Shown here: one piece after another, positions 2,001 to 14,376 of the stretch
How positions within the stretch are numbered: position 1 is the first letter of the stretch
Layout: each line of letters starts with the position of its first letter
IMG/VR virus record: IMGVR_UViG_3300042542_005977
Span: 1-22,493 of that record
DNA: 22,493 nucleotides
From: a virus
Direction: 5' to 3' (one strand)
Program-made: the position numbers and the translations under genes
Notes under the pieces: generated by a model
The model's database searches: none
Told to the model about the DNA's origin: nothing
What the model saw: only the letters and a program-made list of their open reading frames with translations

Positions 2001-2024
2001 GAAGTTTCACCATCCTGCAACGGA

Positions 2025-2053
2025 CCCCCGGCAGCGCGAGTTGCCGGGGGTTT
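2025..2053 (+). terminator. Intrinsic terminator after the capsid gene
   Basis: A perfect 9-bp stem, CCCCCGGCA (2025-2033) with TGCCGGGGG (2042-2050), encloses an 8-base loop and is followed by a T-rich run (TTTCTGTTT). It starts 25 bases after the capsid stop codon. It would end or attenuate transcripts of the head genes so that the head-tail and tail genes downstream are made in smaller amounts, unless a new promoter or antitermination acts. Confidence 0.85.
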
Positions 2054-2973: not shown

Positions 2974-3978
2974 ATGCCCAAAGACAACTGGGGAGCGATT
3001 GCGCGGGAGAGCGCAGAGCACGCACATCGTAGCGTGGTGTCGGATTACAAGCGGCAAATCACGGCCGGGTTGGAACGGATCAAAGAACTGGAGGAGCAGC
3101 TAGGGGTGGTAGACGCGCTGAATGCGGCCAAGCCCTCGCAGAAGCCGTTGGCGGTGAAAAAGACGGCGAAGTGTCAGGCGGTGGCGGTGGCTTTGGCGAG
3201 TGACTGGCACGTGGAGGAGCAGGTGACGGCGGATTCGACCAATGGACTGAATCATTTTGACCTGCGCGTGGCGGAGGCCCGGATCGAGAAGTTTTTTAAC
3301 AGTGTGGTGCGGCTCACGGAGATCGAGCGCAACGGTGCGGAGATCGACACGTGCCTGTTGTTTTTGGGCGGCGACCTGATGAGTGGATATATCCATGAAG
3401 AGTTGGCGGAGACGAATGCGCTGAGTCCGACGGAGACGATTTTGTGGGTGATGGAGCGGGTCTCGCGGGGGATCGCCTCGTTGCGGCAAAATTTTTCGCG
3501 GGTCTTGATTCCGTGTTGCTACGGAAACCATGGGCGGACCACGAAGAAACCACGGCATGCCACGGGGTTTCGCAACAGCTACGAATGGTTGCTCTACAAG
3601 GTGATGTCGCAGCGGGTGCAGGACGGGGTGGAGTGGCAGGTGGCGGATTCGTATTTCAATTACGTGGATCTGTTTGGCAAGACGTTGCGCTTTCACCACG
3701 GGGACGGGTTGAAGTATCAGGGCGGCATCGGCGGGCTGACCATCCCTACGGAGAAGGCGATTGCCTCGTGGAACAAGGCACGCGTAGCGGATCTGGATTG
3801 TTTCGGGCACTGGCACACGCAACAGCAGAATCCGAAGTGGGTCAGTAATGGGTCGCTGATCGGCTACAATGCTTACGCGATCAGCATCAAGGCGTCCTAT
3901 GAGCCCCCGCAGCAGACATATTTTCTCTTCGACTCGAAGAGAGGGCGCACGATCACAGCGCCGATTGTTTTAGCATGA
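2974..3978 (+). CDS. Calcineurin-like metallophosphoesterase
   Basis: 334 aa carrying the whole two-metal phosphoesterase signature in order: D-x-H at 77-79 (in SDWH), GGD at 132-134, GNH at 184-186, HHGD at 241-244 and GHWH at 278-281, followed by NGS at 292-294, the usual spot for the family's N(P)GS turn. These residues normally bind a pair of metal ions and hydrolyse phosphomonoesters, phosphodiesters or nucleic-acid ends. A charged N-terminal region with a short coiled coil (residues 20-46) precedes the domain and may mediate multimerisation. No signal peptide, so cytoplasmic. Proteins of this sort occur in many phages; the substrate is not deducible here. It heads a three-gene non-structural cassette and overlaps the next gene by ATGA. 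The start at 2974 is preceded by a TTGACA motif, not by a Shine-Dalgarno. Confidence 0.88.
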   Translation: MPKDNWGAIARESAEHAHRSVVSDYKRQITAGLERIKELEEQLGVVDALNAAKPSQKPLAVKKTAKCQAVAVALASDWHVEEQVTADSTNGLNHFDLRVAEARIEKFFNSVVRLTEIERNGAEIDTCLLFLGGDLMSGYIHEELAETNALSPTETILWVMERVSRGIASLRQNFSRVLIPCCYGNHGRTTKKPRHATGFRNSYEWLLYKVMSQRVQDGVEWQVADSYFNYVDLFGKTLRFHHGDGLKYQGGIGGLTIPTEKAIASWNKARVADLDCFGHWHTQQQNPKWVSNGSLIGYNAYAISIKASYEPPQQTYFLFDSKRGRTITAPIVLA

Positions 3979-4409
3979 ACTGGAAAGCCGAAGTAAACCG
4001 GATGAATGTTTCGGCTTATGCCTGGCCGAAGGGTTGGAGCACGCGAGACGAGATCGCGGAGCAGGTGGAATGCTCGCCGGAGCGGGTGCGCGAGGTGCTC
4101 AATCCTGGCATCAAGGCGGGAACCATCGAGTTCCGGGATTTCAAGGTTTGGGAAGATGGTCGCTTTGTTCGCCGCACGGGCTACCGGAAGGTGAGCCAAG
4201 CAGCGGCCAGCGCACCGAAGGTCGCGCCGCAGGTTGCGCCGAAGGCGATGGAGCCTAAAGCGGGGATGCCGGTGGTGTCGCGCAAGCGGGGGACCAAGGG
4301 CAAGATCGTGTCGGTGAAGGGCGACCGGATGGTGATTGATTGGGAGACGACGGGGCGGAAGGAGTGCAGCATGTCGGCGTTTCGCAAGAAGGACATCCGG
4401 CTGGCTTGA
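3975..4409 (+). CDS. Small winged-helix-like / SH3-like protein
   Basis: 144 aa, starting in an ATGA overlap with the phosphoesterase gene, so probably translationally coupled to it. Residues 20-70 look like a winged helix-turn-helix: WSTRDEIAEQ, then CSPERVREVLNPGIKAGTI as the recognition-helix region, then strands RDFKVW and GRFVRRTGY as the wing. An Ala/Pro/Lys linker (about 75-98) leads to a small beta domain (103-142, including KGKIVSVKGDRMVIDWE) that resembles an SH3/KOW-like barrel. This suggests a nucleic-acid-binding accessory or regulatory protein, but no family is recognised with certainty. The stop is TGA followed by C, inside a TTGACA motif, and the next start is in the same reading frame. 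Confidence 0.6.
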   Translation: MNWKAEVNRMNVSAYAWPKGWSTRDEIAEQVECSPERVREVLNPGIKAGTIEFRDFKVWEDGRFVRRTGYRKVSQAAASAPKVAPQVAPKAMEPKAGMPVVSRKRGTKGKIVSVKGDRMVIDWETTGRKECSMSAFRKKDIRLA

Positions 4410-4411
4410 CA
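4406..4411 (+). promoter_or_regulatory. TTGACA start-associated motif, gene at 4425
   Basis: The first base is 19 bases before the ATG at 4425. The TGA inside the motif is the stop codon of the winged-helix-like gene and is in frame with the next ATG, with five sense codons between. Confidence 0.5.
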
Positions 4412-4424
4412 TCGGTGGGCAGGC

Positions 4425-4868
4425 ATGGCCCTGCGAATGGTAGCGCGACCGGAGAAATGCCCGCCTTGGGTGGCGGATCTCATTGTTGATCTGGATACGA
4501 AGTGTTTTCCGGAGGATTACCGCGTCAAGCCGGAGGGGGCTTACTGGTGGATCGAAGAGGAGCGGGGCGAGCCGGTGGCGTTTGCCGGGATGAAGGTGTG
4601 CGCTGCGGAATACAATCGCGGGCTAGGCTATCTATCGCGGGCGGGGGTGCTGCCGAAGTATCGGGGGCAGGGACGGCAGCGGCGGCTGATCCGCGCGCGT
4701 ATAGCTTTGGCGCGACGGCTGAATTTACTGGAGGTCGTGACGTATGTGATGGCGGCGAATCTGGCGAGTGCGAACAGTCTGATCGGCGTGGGCTTTCGGC
4801 TTTACAGTCCGGCAGAGCGCTGGGGCGGGAAGGATGCGTTGTATTTCCGGAGGCGACTGGGCGGTTGA
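4425..4868 (+). CDS. GNAT-family N-acetyltransferase
   Basis: 147 aa with the GNAT fold signatures. Residues 50-72 give the central strands (PVAFAGMKV, LGYLSRAGV). Residues 74-89 are motif A, the acetyl-CoA pyrophosphate-binding loop (LPKYRGQGRQRRLI, an R/Q-x-x-G-x-G/A type loop). Residues 111-127 are motif B (ANLASANSLIGVGFRLY) with the usual Asn...GF...Y pattern. Such enzymes move acetyl from acetyl-CoA to an amine: antibiotic, amino acid, peptide N-terminus or protein lysine. The substrate cannot be read from the sequence. It is unusual between head-tail and tail-tube genes and may be a host-modifying accessory gene. The start is preceded by TTGACA and is in frame with the gene before; its own stop is TGA inside the next TTGACA. 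Confidence 0.85.
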   Translation: MALRMVARPEKCPPWVADLIVDLDTKCFPEDYRVKPEGAYWWIEEERGEPVAFAGMKVCAAEYNRGLGYLSRAGVLPKYRGQGRQRRLIRARIALARRLNLLEVVTYVMAANLASANSLIGVGFRLYSPAERWGGKDALYFRRRLGG

Positions 4869-4886: not shown

Positions 4887-5246
4887 ATGCCACTTTCAAC
4901 AGCAGGACTAAATGCCGGGGGGGTCACATTGACCACAGCCATTCCTCAGGGAACACAGATCACGAACATGACCGAGATTATTTCGATCACGGTTCGCCGG
5001 ATCAATTCGACTCAGATCGAGGCCAAAAAGAGCAACGGAGACATCGCGGCGATTGCCTATGGCGGCGAGAAATACGAGATGGAGGCCGAGGGTTACACAA
5101 CCGTGACTCAAGTTCCGAACCTCGCGGGCGCGACATGGACTGCCTTCAACCTAACCGGCCGCGTGATGAGCTATGAAATTCTCGGATCGAACGAGGACTT
5201 TGTGAAGCTGCGCGTGAGCGGCATCGGATTTGCCGGAGCCACGTAA
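4887..5246 (+). CDS. Probable tail tube protein (small)
   Basis: 119 aa, almost wholly beta: alternating strands such as IISITVRRI, QIEAKKS, EKYEMEAEGYTT and DFVKLRVSGIGF. Gly/Ala/Thr-rich ends, no Cys, no membrane segment. It lies just before the probable tail-assembly chaperone and tape-measure genes, where siphoviruses encode the tail tube subunit, and no other gene between the capsid and tape measure fits that job better. Tube proteins are often somewhat longer, so an initiator or other tail role remains possible. The ATG at 4887 is 17 bases after the end of TTGACA, with no Shine-Dalgarno. The stop overlaps the next start (TAATG). Confidence 0.5.
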   Translation: MPLSTAGLNAGGVTLTTAIPQGTQITNMTEIISITVRRINSTQIEAKKSNGDIAAIAYGGEKYEMEAEGYTTVTQVPNLAGATWTAFNLTGRVMSYEILGSNEDFVKLRVSGIGFAGAT

Positions 5247-8442: not shown

Positions 8443-9249
8443 ATGCCAATCCAAGTCACAGGATTTTTTACCCCGCAGTTTGAAAAAGAGCGGCAAACAG
8501 TAGACCGCGTCGGCTTTATGCAAACGGTTTGGGTGAAACGCGTGAGGACGGAGGAATTCCTCAGCGGCCCAATCCCACCTCAACTTTGGCGGGAGGACAT
8601 ACGCTTCACGCGCGAGGAAGTGGAGTTGGTTGATGGTGTGGCGGTCATCCGACATTTTTATGATGGCCTGCCCAGTGGCGCAACGGATCCCAGCGGTAGG
8701 GCAGGCATTAATACGCTGTATGAATTCGATCCGTCATTTGATGAAGTGCCGATACAAGCGCACCACAACTTCGGCGGGCCCGATGGTTCGGATGACAGCC
8801 TTTTCAAGAAATATGGCGGCTATTATGACGGCAATGGCAATTTGAGATGGCGACCGGCGGAGAGCAAATCAGGCAAGAGTTCATCGAGGGGCCTTGCTCC
8901 TCTTGGGAGTCCCGCGCAATCGGTCGGAGGACCGGGGGCTGTCAAAAGTCTGCAGGGTGTGGAGTCTTACCTTCGGATGGGTGGGGTGTTTCGCATCGTT
9001 TATGCGCATCGCGGTGAAGCCATGCCGTCCAATTTGTTTTTCGGGGTAGGAACAATCCAAACTCCCCCATCATCCAATGTGTTGCCAACTTTGCCCTCGT
9101 CGCGCAACTGGCTGAAGGGGCCGCCTAGTGCGCGGTGGCGTGGCAATGCATGGGAGATCACGGAGGAATACATACTTTCCGGAGTGGGTGGATGGATCAA
9201 GGACATCTACGATGGGCGGACCGAGAGCCAAGCAGGGCAAAGCACGTGA
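8443..9249 (+). CDS. Tail tip / baseplate protein of unknown family
   Basis: 268 aa, beta-rich with many aromatic residues (for example LWREDIRFTREEVELVDG, EVPIQAHHNFGG and GNAWEITEEYIL). A polar Ser/Gly/Pro loop lies at about residues 140-170. It starts 4 bases after the tape-measure stop and overlaps the next gene by GTGA. This position is usually that of the distal tail protein (Dit) in siphoviruses, but I see no Dit signature, so the role is only inferred from position. No clear ribosome binding site precedes the ATG. The first ~100 bases are more AT-rich than the surroundings. Confidence 0.55.
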   Translation: MPIQVTGFFTPQFEKERQTVDRVGFMQTVWVKRVRTEEFLSGPIPPQLWREDIRFTREEVELVDGVAVIRHFYDGLPSGATDPSGRAGINTLYEFDPSFDEVPIQAHHNFGGPDGSDDSLFKKYGGYYDGNGNLRWRPAESKSGKSSSRGLAPLGSPAQSVGGPGAVKSLQGVESYLRMGGVFRIVYAHRGEAMPSNLFFGVGTIQTPPSSNVLPTLPSSRNWLKGPPSARWRGNAWEITEEYILSGVGGWIKDIYDGRTESQAGQST

Positions 9250-11637: not shown

Positions 11638-14376
11638 GTGCGCTCCTTGTATTATGCCAATTTGCAGACTCGGCGACCGGCCAGCAGTATAGGGGGCGGC
11701 GAAGTCACGGTTCCTAGTCTGTTGGCCGGACAACAGTGGCAGATTGCGCTGCGCTTTACCGATGCTGCGGATGGCCAGTTCGGAGAGATCCGTCCCCCGG
11801 TGCGCAGTTTGCGGGCCTCGCTTGGACCGGTGGATGCGCGACCGGCAGCGGGTAGCTTTCGTTTGCAGGTAGGTTTGGGTAATTCGACAAGTGCCAACAC
11901 GACAGCAGTCTTGCCTGCCAATGCCACGGCAGTTCAGGTGGCGGCGGCGCTGAATGGGTTGGCAGGCGCAGGCGGAGACTATTCGGTGGATTTCGATGCT
12001 GGATCTTACCTGATCCGGCGCGCTGGCGGGCAGATGGTGACTTTGACCGCGAGGCAGAATGTCTTGCGTCCGATCAGCGCGGTGCGAGTGAGGCCTTATC
12101 AAGTGGATGGCGCCTGGGTGCACGAGGTGCGCTTGATCCAAGCGCCTTATGCTTTTGCCGACAATGCGGCGCAAGCATTACCGACACCGCCTTACGTGCA
12201 GACGCTGGTGGATGGCTACACTTCGCCGGACAACACGTGGAAGATCAACGAGGTGCAGCAGTTGATCTTACCAGCGGAGTTCCGGTCTACTTACCGGCTG
12301 ACTTTCAATTATGCAGGCGGCGTGGCCAACACGGGGTTGCCGCGCAAAACACGGGTGCTGGGGATCGAGGACGGCGCCGAGGAGTTGCAGGCGGCGATCA
12401 ATGAAATTCTCAAGGATTTGGGGGGCTACGACGGCGAGGTGGAGGTGGCCAACCCAACCAGCAATGTGGCGCGCATCACTTTTGGCGGCAAGGCTTTGGA
12501 CGGTGTCGATGTGCCGCCTTTGGGGGTGGAGGCGTTTCCGTTGCCGGGCGACGAGGGGGATTGGGTATTCACGTTAGACTTAAATCGCTCCGAGATGTGG
12601 GTGGCGCTGCGCGGGGCAGAATCGGTGACTGTGCCTTTCGAGGTGGAGGCGGATGTCTATATCGACCGCAACGATTTGAGTCAGGGGTGGACGACGATCA
12701 AGCTCTGGAGCGTGCCGGTGACGGTGACGCGGCCGTTGCTTTATGAGGGCCTAGCGGCGGCCCAGTCCATTGATTGGCTAAGGCCGATTTCGCCTCGCTC
12801 GTATGTGCCGTTCAATCCCGACCAGATCATAACCGGTCAGCAGCATTGGGTGGGGACGATCGGGTTTGGCGCGGCCAACAGTCCGGCTTATGGCACTGCG
12901 GTGAGCGTTGGTTTTGGCACGGCAGGGGGGGAGCAGATTTTCACGATCGACCATGATCTGAATACCGAGGCAGTGCATGTGACGGTGCGAGAAAATGAAG
13001 CGCCTGGAGACATCGTTTCGCCGAAACGGGTGAGCGTGGACGGACCGAATAGTGTCTCTGTGGCCTTCGGCAGCGCCTTATCGAGCGGTGAGGTTTACGG
13101 GGTGGTGATCACGAGCGCGGGACCGCGCAGTGTGTTCTTGGGGCACACGCACACGACGGCGCAAGTGACGGGGTTGGAGGAAATCATCGGGGCATTGGCC
13201 GAGCGCGTGCTGGCACTGGAGCGGCTGTTGCCGAGGAGTGGTGCAACGGAGAGCGGGATAAGTGATAAACCGGCTGAGACGTTGCTTCCGTGCGTTGGGG
13301 AAGTTTTGCCCGATTTAAGCACGTTGGATTTCCGATCGCCAACCGTGGCAAGCCAAACCTTTGCTACTCCAAAACAGGGAATCCCGGCATCGGAACAGCT
13401 AAACCTAATTCCCAAAGCGCCGGAGGGAACGTCCGCGGCGCAACAGGAGAAGCAGGCGGAGGACGAAAAGGTCAAGCAAAAGGAGGATCCGGATGCGATG
13501 CCGCCGAATTTGTTGCTGCGCGCTCTGATTCCGGGCGTGGGAAGCACTGGCAAGCCCGCTCGCCCAGGGGGCAAAAACAATGAGGGAGAGGTTGTTCCAG
13601 AGGTGCCAGAAGAGCCTGCAGCCCCGGCGCTCTTCCCGCCTCGTCGTGGATCAAAAATGCCCGTTTTGCTGCAAGCAGTGCAGAGTTCGGCGCCGGTCAA
13701 TACGTCAGTGTTGCCCACGGGCACGGAGTTGGTCGATGGCAGGGTGTATCGCTACACGGGCAGCGAGGAGTTTTTCGTGCCGGGCGATCTGGGGCGGCCG
13801 ACTCTGAAGCTGCCGTCGCAGGGCGTGTTTGCCTACAAGCAGGGGCAGTTTTACCGAGTGCGAAGTGAGGGTGGCAGTGTGTATTATCCGGTGGAGTTCG
13901 AGCGCGAGCTGTGGCGCGTGCATCTTTCGGCACAGCAGATGCCAGAGGGTGCAACGCTGACGATCGGGGGGGAACTGAGGTATCGCCTCTTGGGAGAGTT
14001 TTTCGATGCGGTGCTGGCCAAGCAGGCGCCGCTGGATTTGGCAGCGCAATACATGCTCTACGTCGAGGCGTTGGAGTTGGAGGAGGGTGGGGCGCTAGGT
14101 GCGGTAAAGCGCACGACCACTCTTGCGGCAACACAGGTGATCGTTTCGCCCGTGCTGAAATCCTTCCGCTGGAGGCTGGCTGTCACGCGGGACGCGGCGG
14201 GGTTGGCCTCGAGTTTCACGGCCTTTTCGACGACCACTTCGGCAAGCGGATTCTCCGCGCCGTTCATTTTGCGGATGCGTTTGGGCGGCTTTGACATCGA
14301 CGATATGGCGTCGGATGTGGTGAGGGGCCAAGTGGCTCTGATTATGCCCCCGACCCGGGCAGAGGTAGCACTATGA
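11638..14376 (+). CDS. Large multi-domain tail tip / baseplate protein, 912 aa
   Basis: Start GTG 11638 directly follows an in-frame TAA; TTG 11647 is the only close alternative. Residues ~73-130 and ~215-300 both look like small beta domains with a helix of the VQVAAALNGL / ELQAAINEIL kind, so a repeated domain. Residues ~310-370 are a strand-rich domain (VPFEVEADVYID, TTIKLWSVPVTVTRP). Residues ~420-500 resemble a tail-fibre beta domain ending in GHTHTTAQVTGL (502-510), then a short helix (GALAERVLALERLL) that may trimerise. A charged, Pro-rich linker spans ~535-690. Residues 692-912 are clearly related to the protein encoded next. Likely a peripheral baseplate or fibre-anchor protein on the virion surface; exact role unknown. 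It ends in an ATGA overlap. Confidence 0.7.
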   Translation: MRSLYYANLQTRRPASSIGGGEVTVPSLLAGQQWQIALRFTDAADGQFGEIRPPVRSLRASLGPVDARPAAGSFRLQVGLGNSTSANTTAVLPANATAVQVAAALNGLAGAGGDYSVDFDAGSYLIRRAGGQMVTLTARQNVLRPISAVRVRPYQVDGAWVHEVRLIQAPYAFADNAAQALPTPPYVQTLVDGYTSPDNTWKINEVQQLILPAEFRSTYRLTFNYAGGVANTGLPRKTRVLGIEDGAEELQAAINEILKDLGGYDGEVEVANPTSNVARITFGGKALDGVDVPPLGVEAFPLPGDEGDWVFTLDLNRSEMWVALRGAESVTVPFEVEADVYIDRNDLSQGWTTIKLWSVPVTVTRPLLYEGLAAAQSIDWLRPISPRSYVPFNPDQIITGQQHWVGTIGFGAANSPAYGTAVSVGFGTAGGEQIFTIDHDLNTEAVHVTVRENEAPGDIVSPKRVSVDGPNSVSVAFGSALSSGEVYGVVITSAGPRSVFLGHTHTTAQVTGLEEIIGALAERVLALERLLPRSGATESGISDKPAETLLPCVGEVLPDLSTLDFRSPTVASQTFATPKQGIPASEQLNLIPKAPEGTSAAQQEKQAEDEKVKQKEDPDAMPPNLLLRALIPGVGSTGKPARPGGKNNEGEVVPEVPEEPAAPALFPPRRGSKMPVLLQAVQSSAPVNTSVLPTGTELVDGRVYRYTGSEEFFVPGDLGRPTLKLPSQGVFAYKQGQFYRVRSEGGSVYYPVEFERELWRVHLSAQQMPEGATLTIGGELRYRLLGEFFDAVLAKQAPLDLAAQYMLYVEALELEEGGALGAVKRTTTLAATQVIVSPVLKSFRWRLAVTRDAAGLASSFTAFSTTTSASGFSAPFILRMRLGGFDIDDMASDVVRGQVALIMPPTRAEVAL

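Follow-up and report, generated by a model that had tools for sequence, protein, structure and literature searches.

A predicted two-subunit nuclease cassette with an accessory acetyltransferase gene in the late region of a virus

Organization of the locus

The window, that is, the whole stretch of DNA analysed, spans 22,493 bases and is a virus record of IMG/VR. It contains three complete open reading frames (ORFs) on the + strand at positions 2974-4868, as the initial annotation had reported, which encode a metallophosphoesterase (MPE), a predicted winged-helix protein (WH) and a GNAT acetyltransferase (Table 1). The overlap of the MPE stop with the WH start, ATGA at 3975-3978, was also confirmed; 15 nt separate WH from GNAT, and 18 nt separate GNAT from the next ORF. 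Profile searches identified a cement gene (PF09956, phrog_673) and a capsid gene (phrog_1005, E 4e-30) upstream of the cassette. The labels of tail terminator (2434-2880) and tail tube (4887-5246), assigned earlier to the flanking genes, found no support among Pfam or PHROGs profiles, and the tape-measure label elsewhere in the window is weak (phrog_28, E 0.005). The locus had further been described as one that normally holds structural genes only, which is too strong, since the isolate K1ind1 encodes an MPE, a polynucleotide kinase and an ATP-binding protein, on the other strand, between its tail-protein and tail-assembly-chaperone genes. The TTGACA junctions that had been proposed to link the three genes occur at chance frequency (10 in the window, 9.68 expected), and no promoter-like site was found on the + strand between positions 2000 and 5900. 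TTGACA is therefore no evidence of joint expression, and the argument for it is left with tight spacing and position only. Judged from its position, the cassette would be expressed late.

Table 1. Features of the cassette in the window
Feature	Position	Strand	Length	Basis
MPE (metallophosphoesterase), probable catalytic nuclease subunit	2974..3978	+	334 aa	phrog_284, predicted fold
MPE N-terminal helical segment, residues 1-51, W-x-x-[IV]-[AE]-R, proposed docking segment	2974..3126	+		Motif counts, MPE1/MPE2 alignment, model
MPE motif I, D77-W-H79	3202..3210	+		D and H invariant in alignment
MPE motif II, G133-D134	3370..3375	+		Invariant in alignment
MPE motif III, N185-H186	3526..3531	+		Invariant in alignment
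MPE motif IV, H241-H242	3694..3699	+		Invariant in alignment
MPE motif V, H279-W-H281	3808..3816	+		Both H invariant in alignment
WH, winged helix + C-terminal Tudor/KOW-like domain	3975..4409	+	144 aa	Model, MPE linkage
GNAT acetyltransferase	4425..4868	+	147 aa	PF00583, nuclease-type neighbours of its family
GNAT acetyl-CoA loop, R-G-Q-G-R-Q	4662..4679	+		R80, G81, G83, Q85 invariant (GNAT alignment)

The MPE and WH proteins

The window MPE matches phrog_284, annotated as "exonuclease", over residues 14-333 (E 3.6e-40). The calcineurin-like metallophosphoesterase superfamily is characterized by five motifs, DxH, GD, GNH, H and GHxH, all of which are present in the window protein; D77-x-H79, GD134, GN185H186, H241H242 and GH279xH281 are invariant across 24 aligned relatives. 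A Pfam search of the window MPE gave no match, the PF00149-type Metallophos profile included, while members of a second MPE family (L067-L069) match PF00149 above the cut-off. With motifs and fold in place, the absent Pfam match is a missed profile in a diverged family. The AlphaFold model (pLDDT 78) has a helix at residues 6-51. Foldseek identified TmMre11 as the closest structure (4nzv_B, E 8e-8), and VIA-align matched the model to DP1, the exonuclease subunit of PolD (8ppt_A, Z 16.6, rmsd 3.4, 232 aligned residues), and to Mre11 (3tho_B, Z 15.8, rmsd 4.1, 206 aligned). The lipid phosphatase LpxH is also near (Z 13.6), so the substrate cannot be read from the fold alone; the Foldseek matches also include the Ap4A hydrolase/phosphodiesterase 3qfm. 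A search of the PDB by sequence gave no usable solved relative.

Relatives of the window MPE were found in 123 of 50,697 phage isolate records, all below 60% identity, the 40 listed being 31-36% identical. The gene lies near exonuclease VIII, RusA and sigma factor genes in cyanophage S-CBS1 and near exonuclease and sigma factor genes in cyanophage KBS-S-2A, and in a Bacteroides phage its neighbours are a DNA polymerase gene and one of Cas4 type. A distant relative from IMG/VR (L030) is located near primase, helicase, Cas4, Sak4 and RusA genes. A DNA nuclease is the economical reading of the MPE, as an activity predicted from its sequence and model. NCBIfam and PADLOC, the latter a library of defence rather than counter-defence systems, gave no match for the three window proteins or for representatives of the second MPE family and of the HTH-MPE fusions described below.

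The WH model (pLDDT 81.7) has the helix-helix-helix-strand-strand order of a putative winged helix, after which comes a small barrel that resembles the Tudor domains of UvrD and RapA and the KOW domain of Spt5. The barrel aligns with the UvrD Tudor domain (7egt_B, Z 6.9, rmsd 1.5, 47 aligned residues), and matches to winged helices are modest, below the clear range of the tool (6pln, Z 6.3; 1sfx, Z 5.6). Pfam gave no HTH match above cut-off for the window WH, neither Pfam nor PHROGs assigned it to a clear family, and no match was found among the 50,697 isolate records. In some relatives the barrel is replaced or absent.

Linkage of MPE and WH

In an IMG/VR scan anchored on WH and built, like the GNAT scan below, on patterns from known members, which possibly misses diverged free-standing relatives, an MPE was found directly upstream in 68 of 68 loci. 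Fifty-six of these MPEs belong to the family of the window (MPE1) and 12 to the second family (MPE2), one of the latter (L106) being split over three frames. Loci here are contigs, many of them nearly identical; non-redundant counts are given separately. The reciprocal scan with MPE1 gave 34 loci, 28 of them followed directly by WH, four without it and two cut by a contig end; the four that have neither WH nor WH2 all hold an MPE of 43-46% identity. WH2 is a remote winged-helix relative of WH (hhalign E 6e-7), whose seeds were six ORFs picked by eye. Among the 80 MPE2 loci listed, of 377 confirmed, WH is present in 55, WH2 in 16 and neither in five, with four cut. ATGA-type overlaps join MPE and WH in 33/50 non-redundant MPE1 pairs and 37/56 MPE2 pairs. 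In total, 107 non-redundant cassettes hold MPE and WH: 44 MPE1-WH (m1-wh), 47 MPE2-WH (m2-wh), six and eight with GNAT added (m1-wh-gn and m2-wh-gn, respectively), one m2-m2-wh and one m2-m2-wh-wh. On these sequence comparisons, MPE plus WH is supported as the core unit of the cassette.

The profiles of MPE1 and MPE2 align over residues 3-87 only, which comprise the N-terminal helix and motif I. The motif W-x-x-[IV]-[AE]-R is present in 49 of 51 non-redundant MPE1 proteins that have WH, the remaining two being truncated, and in none of the seven that lack it; for MPE2 the corresponding figures are 20/55 with WH and 0/17 without that WH family, three more being cut. This distribution makes the N-terminal helix a candidate docking element, with the W motif itself not required in MPE2: since 35 of the 55 MPE2 proteins with WH lack it, docking by the W motif is not general.

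Related phages hold either MPE1 or MPE2 at the same site and keep WH, as observed in the pairs L067 vs L013/L014, L085 vs L183, L087 vs L171, L112 vs L053 and L025 vs L164. The upstream DNA of L067 (MPE2) is 79-90% identical to that of L013 and L014 (MPE1) as far as about the tenth MPE codon, its WH is 97% identical to that of L014 and 80% to that of L013, and its downstream DNA matches L013 at 98% over 4.1 kb. In L085/L183 and L087/L171 identity is 87-89% up to the MPE start and similarity resumes at the WH end or just beyond it; L112/L053 are 72-74% identical on both sides, GNAT included, and L025/L164 73% downstream. Given this exchange at one locus, the two MPE families appear to serve one function next to WH.

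The GNAT family and its neighbours

The window GNAT matches PF00583 with 37.4 bits (cut-off 20.7, E 3.5e-9). The acetyl-CoA loop of GNAT enzymes follows the pattern Q/RxxGxG/A, and the window sequence RGQGRQ fits it; no match to the protein was found in the 50,697 phage records. The GNAT-anchored scan gave 50 loci. GNAT directly follows MPE1- or MPE2-WH in 14 of them and directly precedes an HTH-MPE fusion in 18 and an HNH-like gene in 14; the other four (L111, L117, L123, L154) are cut by contig ends. A nuclease-type neighbour thus accompanies this GNAT family in 46/46 informative loci. The fusion label is based on PF00149 matches above cut-off (L145, L152), weak HTH matches (L131, L124) and aligned motifs. 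The HNH-like genes are presumably of that type, judged from HNH motifs together with weak matches, namely to an AI2M-like HNH in L149 (E 0.003) and to a restriction enzyme, PADLOC mREase_IV, in L138 (E 1e-5). In a tree of 38 GNAT rows, with modest support and long branches for L042 and L147, the partner type changes at least seven times by parsimony count.

A search for the three-gene order in other phages, suggested at the outset, recovered the full trio outside the window in L112/L113 and the L053 group. A planctomycete MAG (L042), a case beyond the 107 cassettes, has an MPE1 (40% identity), an 80-aa HTH-like gene and a GNAT (36%) in a row, hence the same order with a different wHTH. GNAT is found in 14 of the 107 non-redundant cassettes, which makes it optional for the nuclease. 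The proposal of a joint system of three genes consequently holds for its MPE-WH core (68/68), and the trio is not fixed. Relatives that lack members at random, or carry them in unrelated places, had been named as evidence against such a system; GNAT is indeed often absent and cassettes occupy several slots, but the absence is one-sided, because the GNAT family has its nuclease-type neighbour in every informative locus. In view of these neighbours and the recurring trio, GNAT as a stray local gain was rejected. Mom-type DNA modification by the window GNAT was likewise weighed but not taken up; a separate gene, labelled Mom-like by its motif, lies apart in L156.

Genomic positions of the cassettes

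Most placed cassettes are located in late regions, next to genes for endolysin, virion protein, capsid or portal; PHROGs profiles recovered capsid, portal, endolysin and virion proteins among the neighbours. Counts in this section refer to non-redundant sets, with gn-fus and gn-hnh for GNAT beside a fusion or an HNH-like gene. The cassette follows an endolysin gene in 8/8 m2-wh-gn, 14/15 gn-fus, 7/44 m1-wh, 2/6 m1-wh-gn and 1/47 m2-wh sets, endolysins being called from 7 of 10 upstream representatives and by similarity to those. It precedes a virion structural protein (phrog_3287) in 17/44 m1-wh, 28/47 m2-wh and 4/15 gn-fus sets, these last four also lying after an endolysin. Other cassettes are beside a giant gene (~1,590 codons) and/or a capsid gene (2/44 m1-wh, 9/47 m2-wh), before a portal gene (2/44 m1-wh), or between head and tail modules (2/44 m1-wh and 4/6 m1-wh-gn, the group of the window). 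The slot was not given or was cut for 14/44 m1-wh, 9/47 m2-wh, 1/15 gn-fus and 6/6 gn-hnh sets. In one of the sets without an assigned slot, that of L011, a RecT gene lies within 3 kb.

The position is stable inside a clade, and several slots are used overall. In two members of the capsid group of the window (L239, L240) the site after the capsid gene is without a cassette, and MPE-WH lies before the portal gene instead. No cassette was seen in L245 and L248 (74% capsid identity), both diverged fragments; no near-identical pair of occupied and empty sites was found, only diverged capsid relatives without the cassette. DNA identity between the window and L004 or L028 is 70-99% through GNAT and ~50% at the next gene, so that in these comparisons the cassette lies at a recombination border between head and tail.

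Comparison with known systems

HTH-MPE proteins related to the L124 fusion occur in 2053 of the 50,697 phage records, several of them annotated as DNA repair exonuclease or phosphoesterase. Those of Drexlerviridae, Guernseyvirinae, Dhillonvirus and others combine an HTH with an MPE, like the window cassette, and their genes often adjoin lysis, terminase or tail genes. For instance, the gene accompanies a polynucleotide kinase between tail genes in K1ind1, lies between endolysin and terminase in bob (Dhillonvirus), and adjoins an HNH gene and lysozyme in Pam1. These are single fused proteins of a different MPE family, whereas the window has two ORFs overlapping by ATGA; its HTH subunit carries a Tudor/KOW-like tail, unlike the fusion, and its GNAT has no counterpart alongside HTH-MPE in four isolate regions. 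The best reading of these sequences is that the cassette would be a split variant of the phage HTH-MPE "DNA repair exonuclease".

The phrog_284 exonucleases of S-CBS1, KBS-S-2A and of Bacteroides and Phocaeicola phages belong to the MPE family of the window (31-36% identity for the listed records). In the regions examined, the isolate genes are part of replication/recombination modules, unlike the virion-gene block of the window, and the cyanophage gene has an HNH-like ORF after it rather than WH, and no N-terminal W motif. Mre11/SbcD and PolD DP1 have the same metal-ligand motif pattern as the window MPE. Their catalytic fold is common to the predicted model (Z 15.8 and 16.6, respectively), at ~15% identity, and the partner in the window is a wHTH.

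Regarding published phage proteins, Gp48, the MPE of mycobacteriophage A10ZJ24, degrades DNA in vitro and needs its motifs (PMC12287305). Gp48 is an early protein, unlike the MPE in the virion block of the window, and the available text of that paper describes no WH or GNAT partner, the likeness being one of analogy. Rac of phiKMV-like phages is a phage GNAT that acts on the host transcription machinery (PMC7552054); the available text of that paper describes no nuclease link, whereas the window GNAT family has nuclease-type neighbours. In Phimunavirus and KP34-like phages, the position of a calcineurin-like phosphoesterase gene varies in an otherwise conserved gene order (PMC6115819). Among the titles and abstracts listed by a search of open-licence PMC papers, none describes an MPE-WH-GNAT cassette.

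Proposed function and alternatives

At the level of sequence, the comparison establishes the constant linkage of MPE and WH, the exchange of MPE families and the constant nuclease-type neighbour of GNAT. On balance, the cassette probably codes for a nuclease of two subunits, metal-dependent and targeted to DNA, together with an accessory acetyltransferase, and is predicted to belong to the late region. The nuclease reading draws on the MPE-WH linkage, the exchange of MPE families, the HTH-MPE fusion after a related GNAT (18 loci), the fold, phrog_284, the DNA-module neighbours of relatives and, by analogy, Gp48; it is weakened by the likeness to LpxH, by WH matches of Z <7, by the W motif being missing from most MPE2 proteins with WH and GNAT from most cassettes, and by the five of 80 listed MPE2 and four of 34 MPE1 loci without WH or WH2. 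The MPE, with its Mre11/PolD-DP1 fold and five motifs, would be the catalytic subunit and the winged helix of WH would bind DNA, while the Tudor/KOW-like tail may contact either RNA polymerase or DNA. The two proteins may be held together, at least in forms with the W motif, by the helix at the N-terminus of the MPE. Made late, the complex could trim or cut concatemers at their ends or branches ahead of packaging, or else act on leftover host or rival DNA. Processing of DNA, one of the roles suggested initially, is favoured by the fold and by relatives in replication/recombination modules, and acetylation of a virion protein, another, found no support. GNAT would most likely acetylate the nuclease complex or a protein working with it, tuning activity or DNA binding; this role as a regulator is possible, if doubtful.

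A broader and rather unlikely extension is that these are modular, mobile late-phage cassettes for DNA cutting, in which swappable catalytic modules (two MPE families, HTH-MPE fusions and HNH) share a wHTH, and GNAT controls the nuclease or protects against it. If true, the cassette would be a phage weapon or a homing unit for which acetylation serves as the safety switch; we know of no such use of a GNAT enzyme.

It is also unlikely that the cassette is a selfish, homing-type mobile element. In that case MPE-WH, HTH-MPE or HNH would cleave genomes that lack the cassette, at intergenic sites in between late genes, and would spread through repair, with GNAT as a passenger or a self-control gene. 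Such an element would agree with the several different slots, the allelic exchange of cassettes between kept flanks, the HNH-like genes as alternative partner of GNAT, the weak match of the L124 HTH to an I-HmuI NUMOD-like domain (E 0.002) and the break of homology at the cassette 3' end against L004 and L028. The stability of the slot within a clade argues against it, as do the missing near-identical occupied/empty pair, L245 and L248 being diverged and fragmentary, and the lack of HNH, GIY-YIG or LAGLIDADG Pfam matches in the window trio. To our knowledge, no MPE homing endonuclease has been described.

Counter-defence, with the MPE hydrolysing a nucleotide signal of a defence system (of the cyclic oligonucleotide, ADP-ribose or Ap4A type), is improbable: such hydrolases exist within the MPE fold, and 3qfm is an example among the matches, but the constant DNA-binding-type partner or HTH fusion and the relatives in DNA modules point to nucleic acid, and PADLOC, within its defence scope, matched none of the three proteins. 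We give still less weight to a protein phosphatase MPE and a GNAT acetylating structural proteins from the same operon; the position among virion genes would suit them, but fold and family favour DNA nucleases and the relatives in replication/recombination modules have no virion neighbours. Three unrelated extra genes, adjacent by chance in one phage, are very improbable and were already disfavoured, since the absence of GNAT from most MPE-WH cassettes is outweighed by WH with its MPE in 68/68 loci, GNAT with its nuclease-type neighbour in 46/46 and the trio recurring elsewhere.

On the preferred reading of a late, two-subunit nuclease, the split form suggests that HTH and MPE are two halves of one machine, of which the catalytic one is exchangeable and its partner stays. 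It further suggests that such nucleases are accompanied by a subfamily of GNATs, which may be a first clue to the role of some phage acetyltransferases, and an unplaced phage enzyme becomes a testable system of two or three parts.

Late region of the phage and its relatives

The IMG/VR contig L002 (IMGVR_UViG_3300042507_007719), of 49.6 kb, is identical to the window across the 13,975 bases compared, and therefore a longer record exists of the same phage or of a very close one. Homology with the loci L004 and L028 is broken between the head and tail modules, at the cassette's 3' end (window ~4900). Upstream of the cassette, directly 3' of the capsid gene, lies a strong, terminator-like hairpin of 14 pairs, which could reduce read-through into the cassette and the genes that follow.

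The loci L004 and L010 carry a giant late protein of ~1,590 aa close to the portal gene, and the L004 copy matches exclusively PHROG families of unknown function. The place of the GNAT acetyltransferase gene is taken in the related L005 group by a 191-aa ORF, for which the PHROG profile search gave no match.

Features of the late region and of the compared loci
Feature	Locus	Position	Strand
Terminator-like hairpin	Window	2022-2053	
Giant late protein	L004	331-5106	
Giant late protein	L010	5238-9980	
191-aa ORF	L005	11246-11818	
HNH-like ORF 3' of MPE1 relative	L039 (KBS-S-2A)	12922-13245	
HNH-like ORF 3' of MPE1 relative	L040 (S-CBS1)	8674-8994	
Putative Mom/XF1762-like gene	L156	3656-4141	-

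HNH-like neighbours

In cyanophages KBS-S-2A and S-CBS1, the relative of MPE1, the metallophosphoesterase family of the window, is followed by an ORF that we take, by motif, to be HNH-like, and then by a sigma factor. GNAT genes are also paired with an HNH-like gene (L138, L144, L149, L156 and 10 further GNAT loci), and no metallophosphoesterase gene was found adjoining the pairs at these loci. About 1.8 kb from the pair in L156 is a gene whose product, judging by motif, presumably resembles the Mom/XF1762 DNA-modification family. GNAT and the HNH-like gene possibly form a separate acetyltransferase-nuclease pair.
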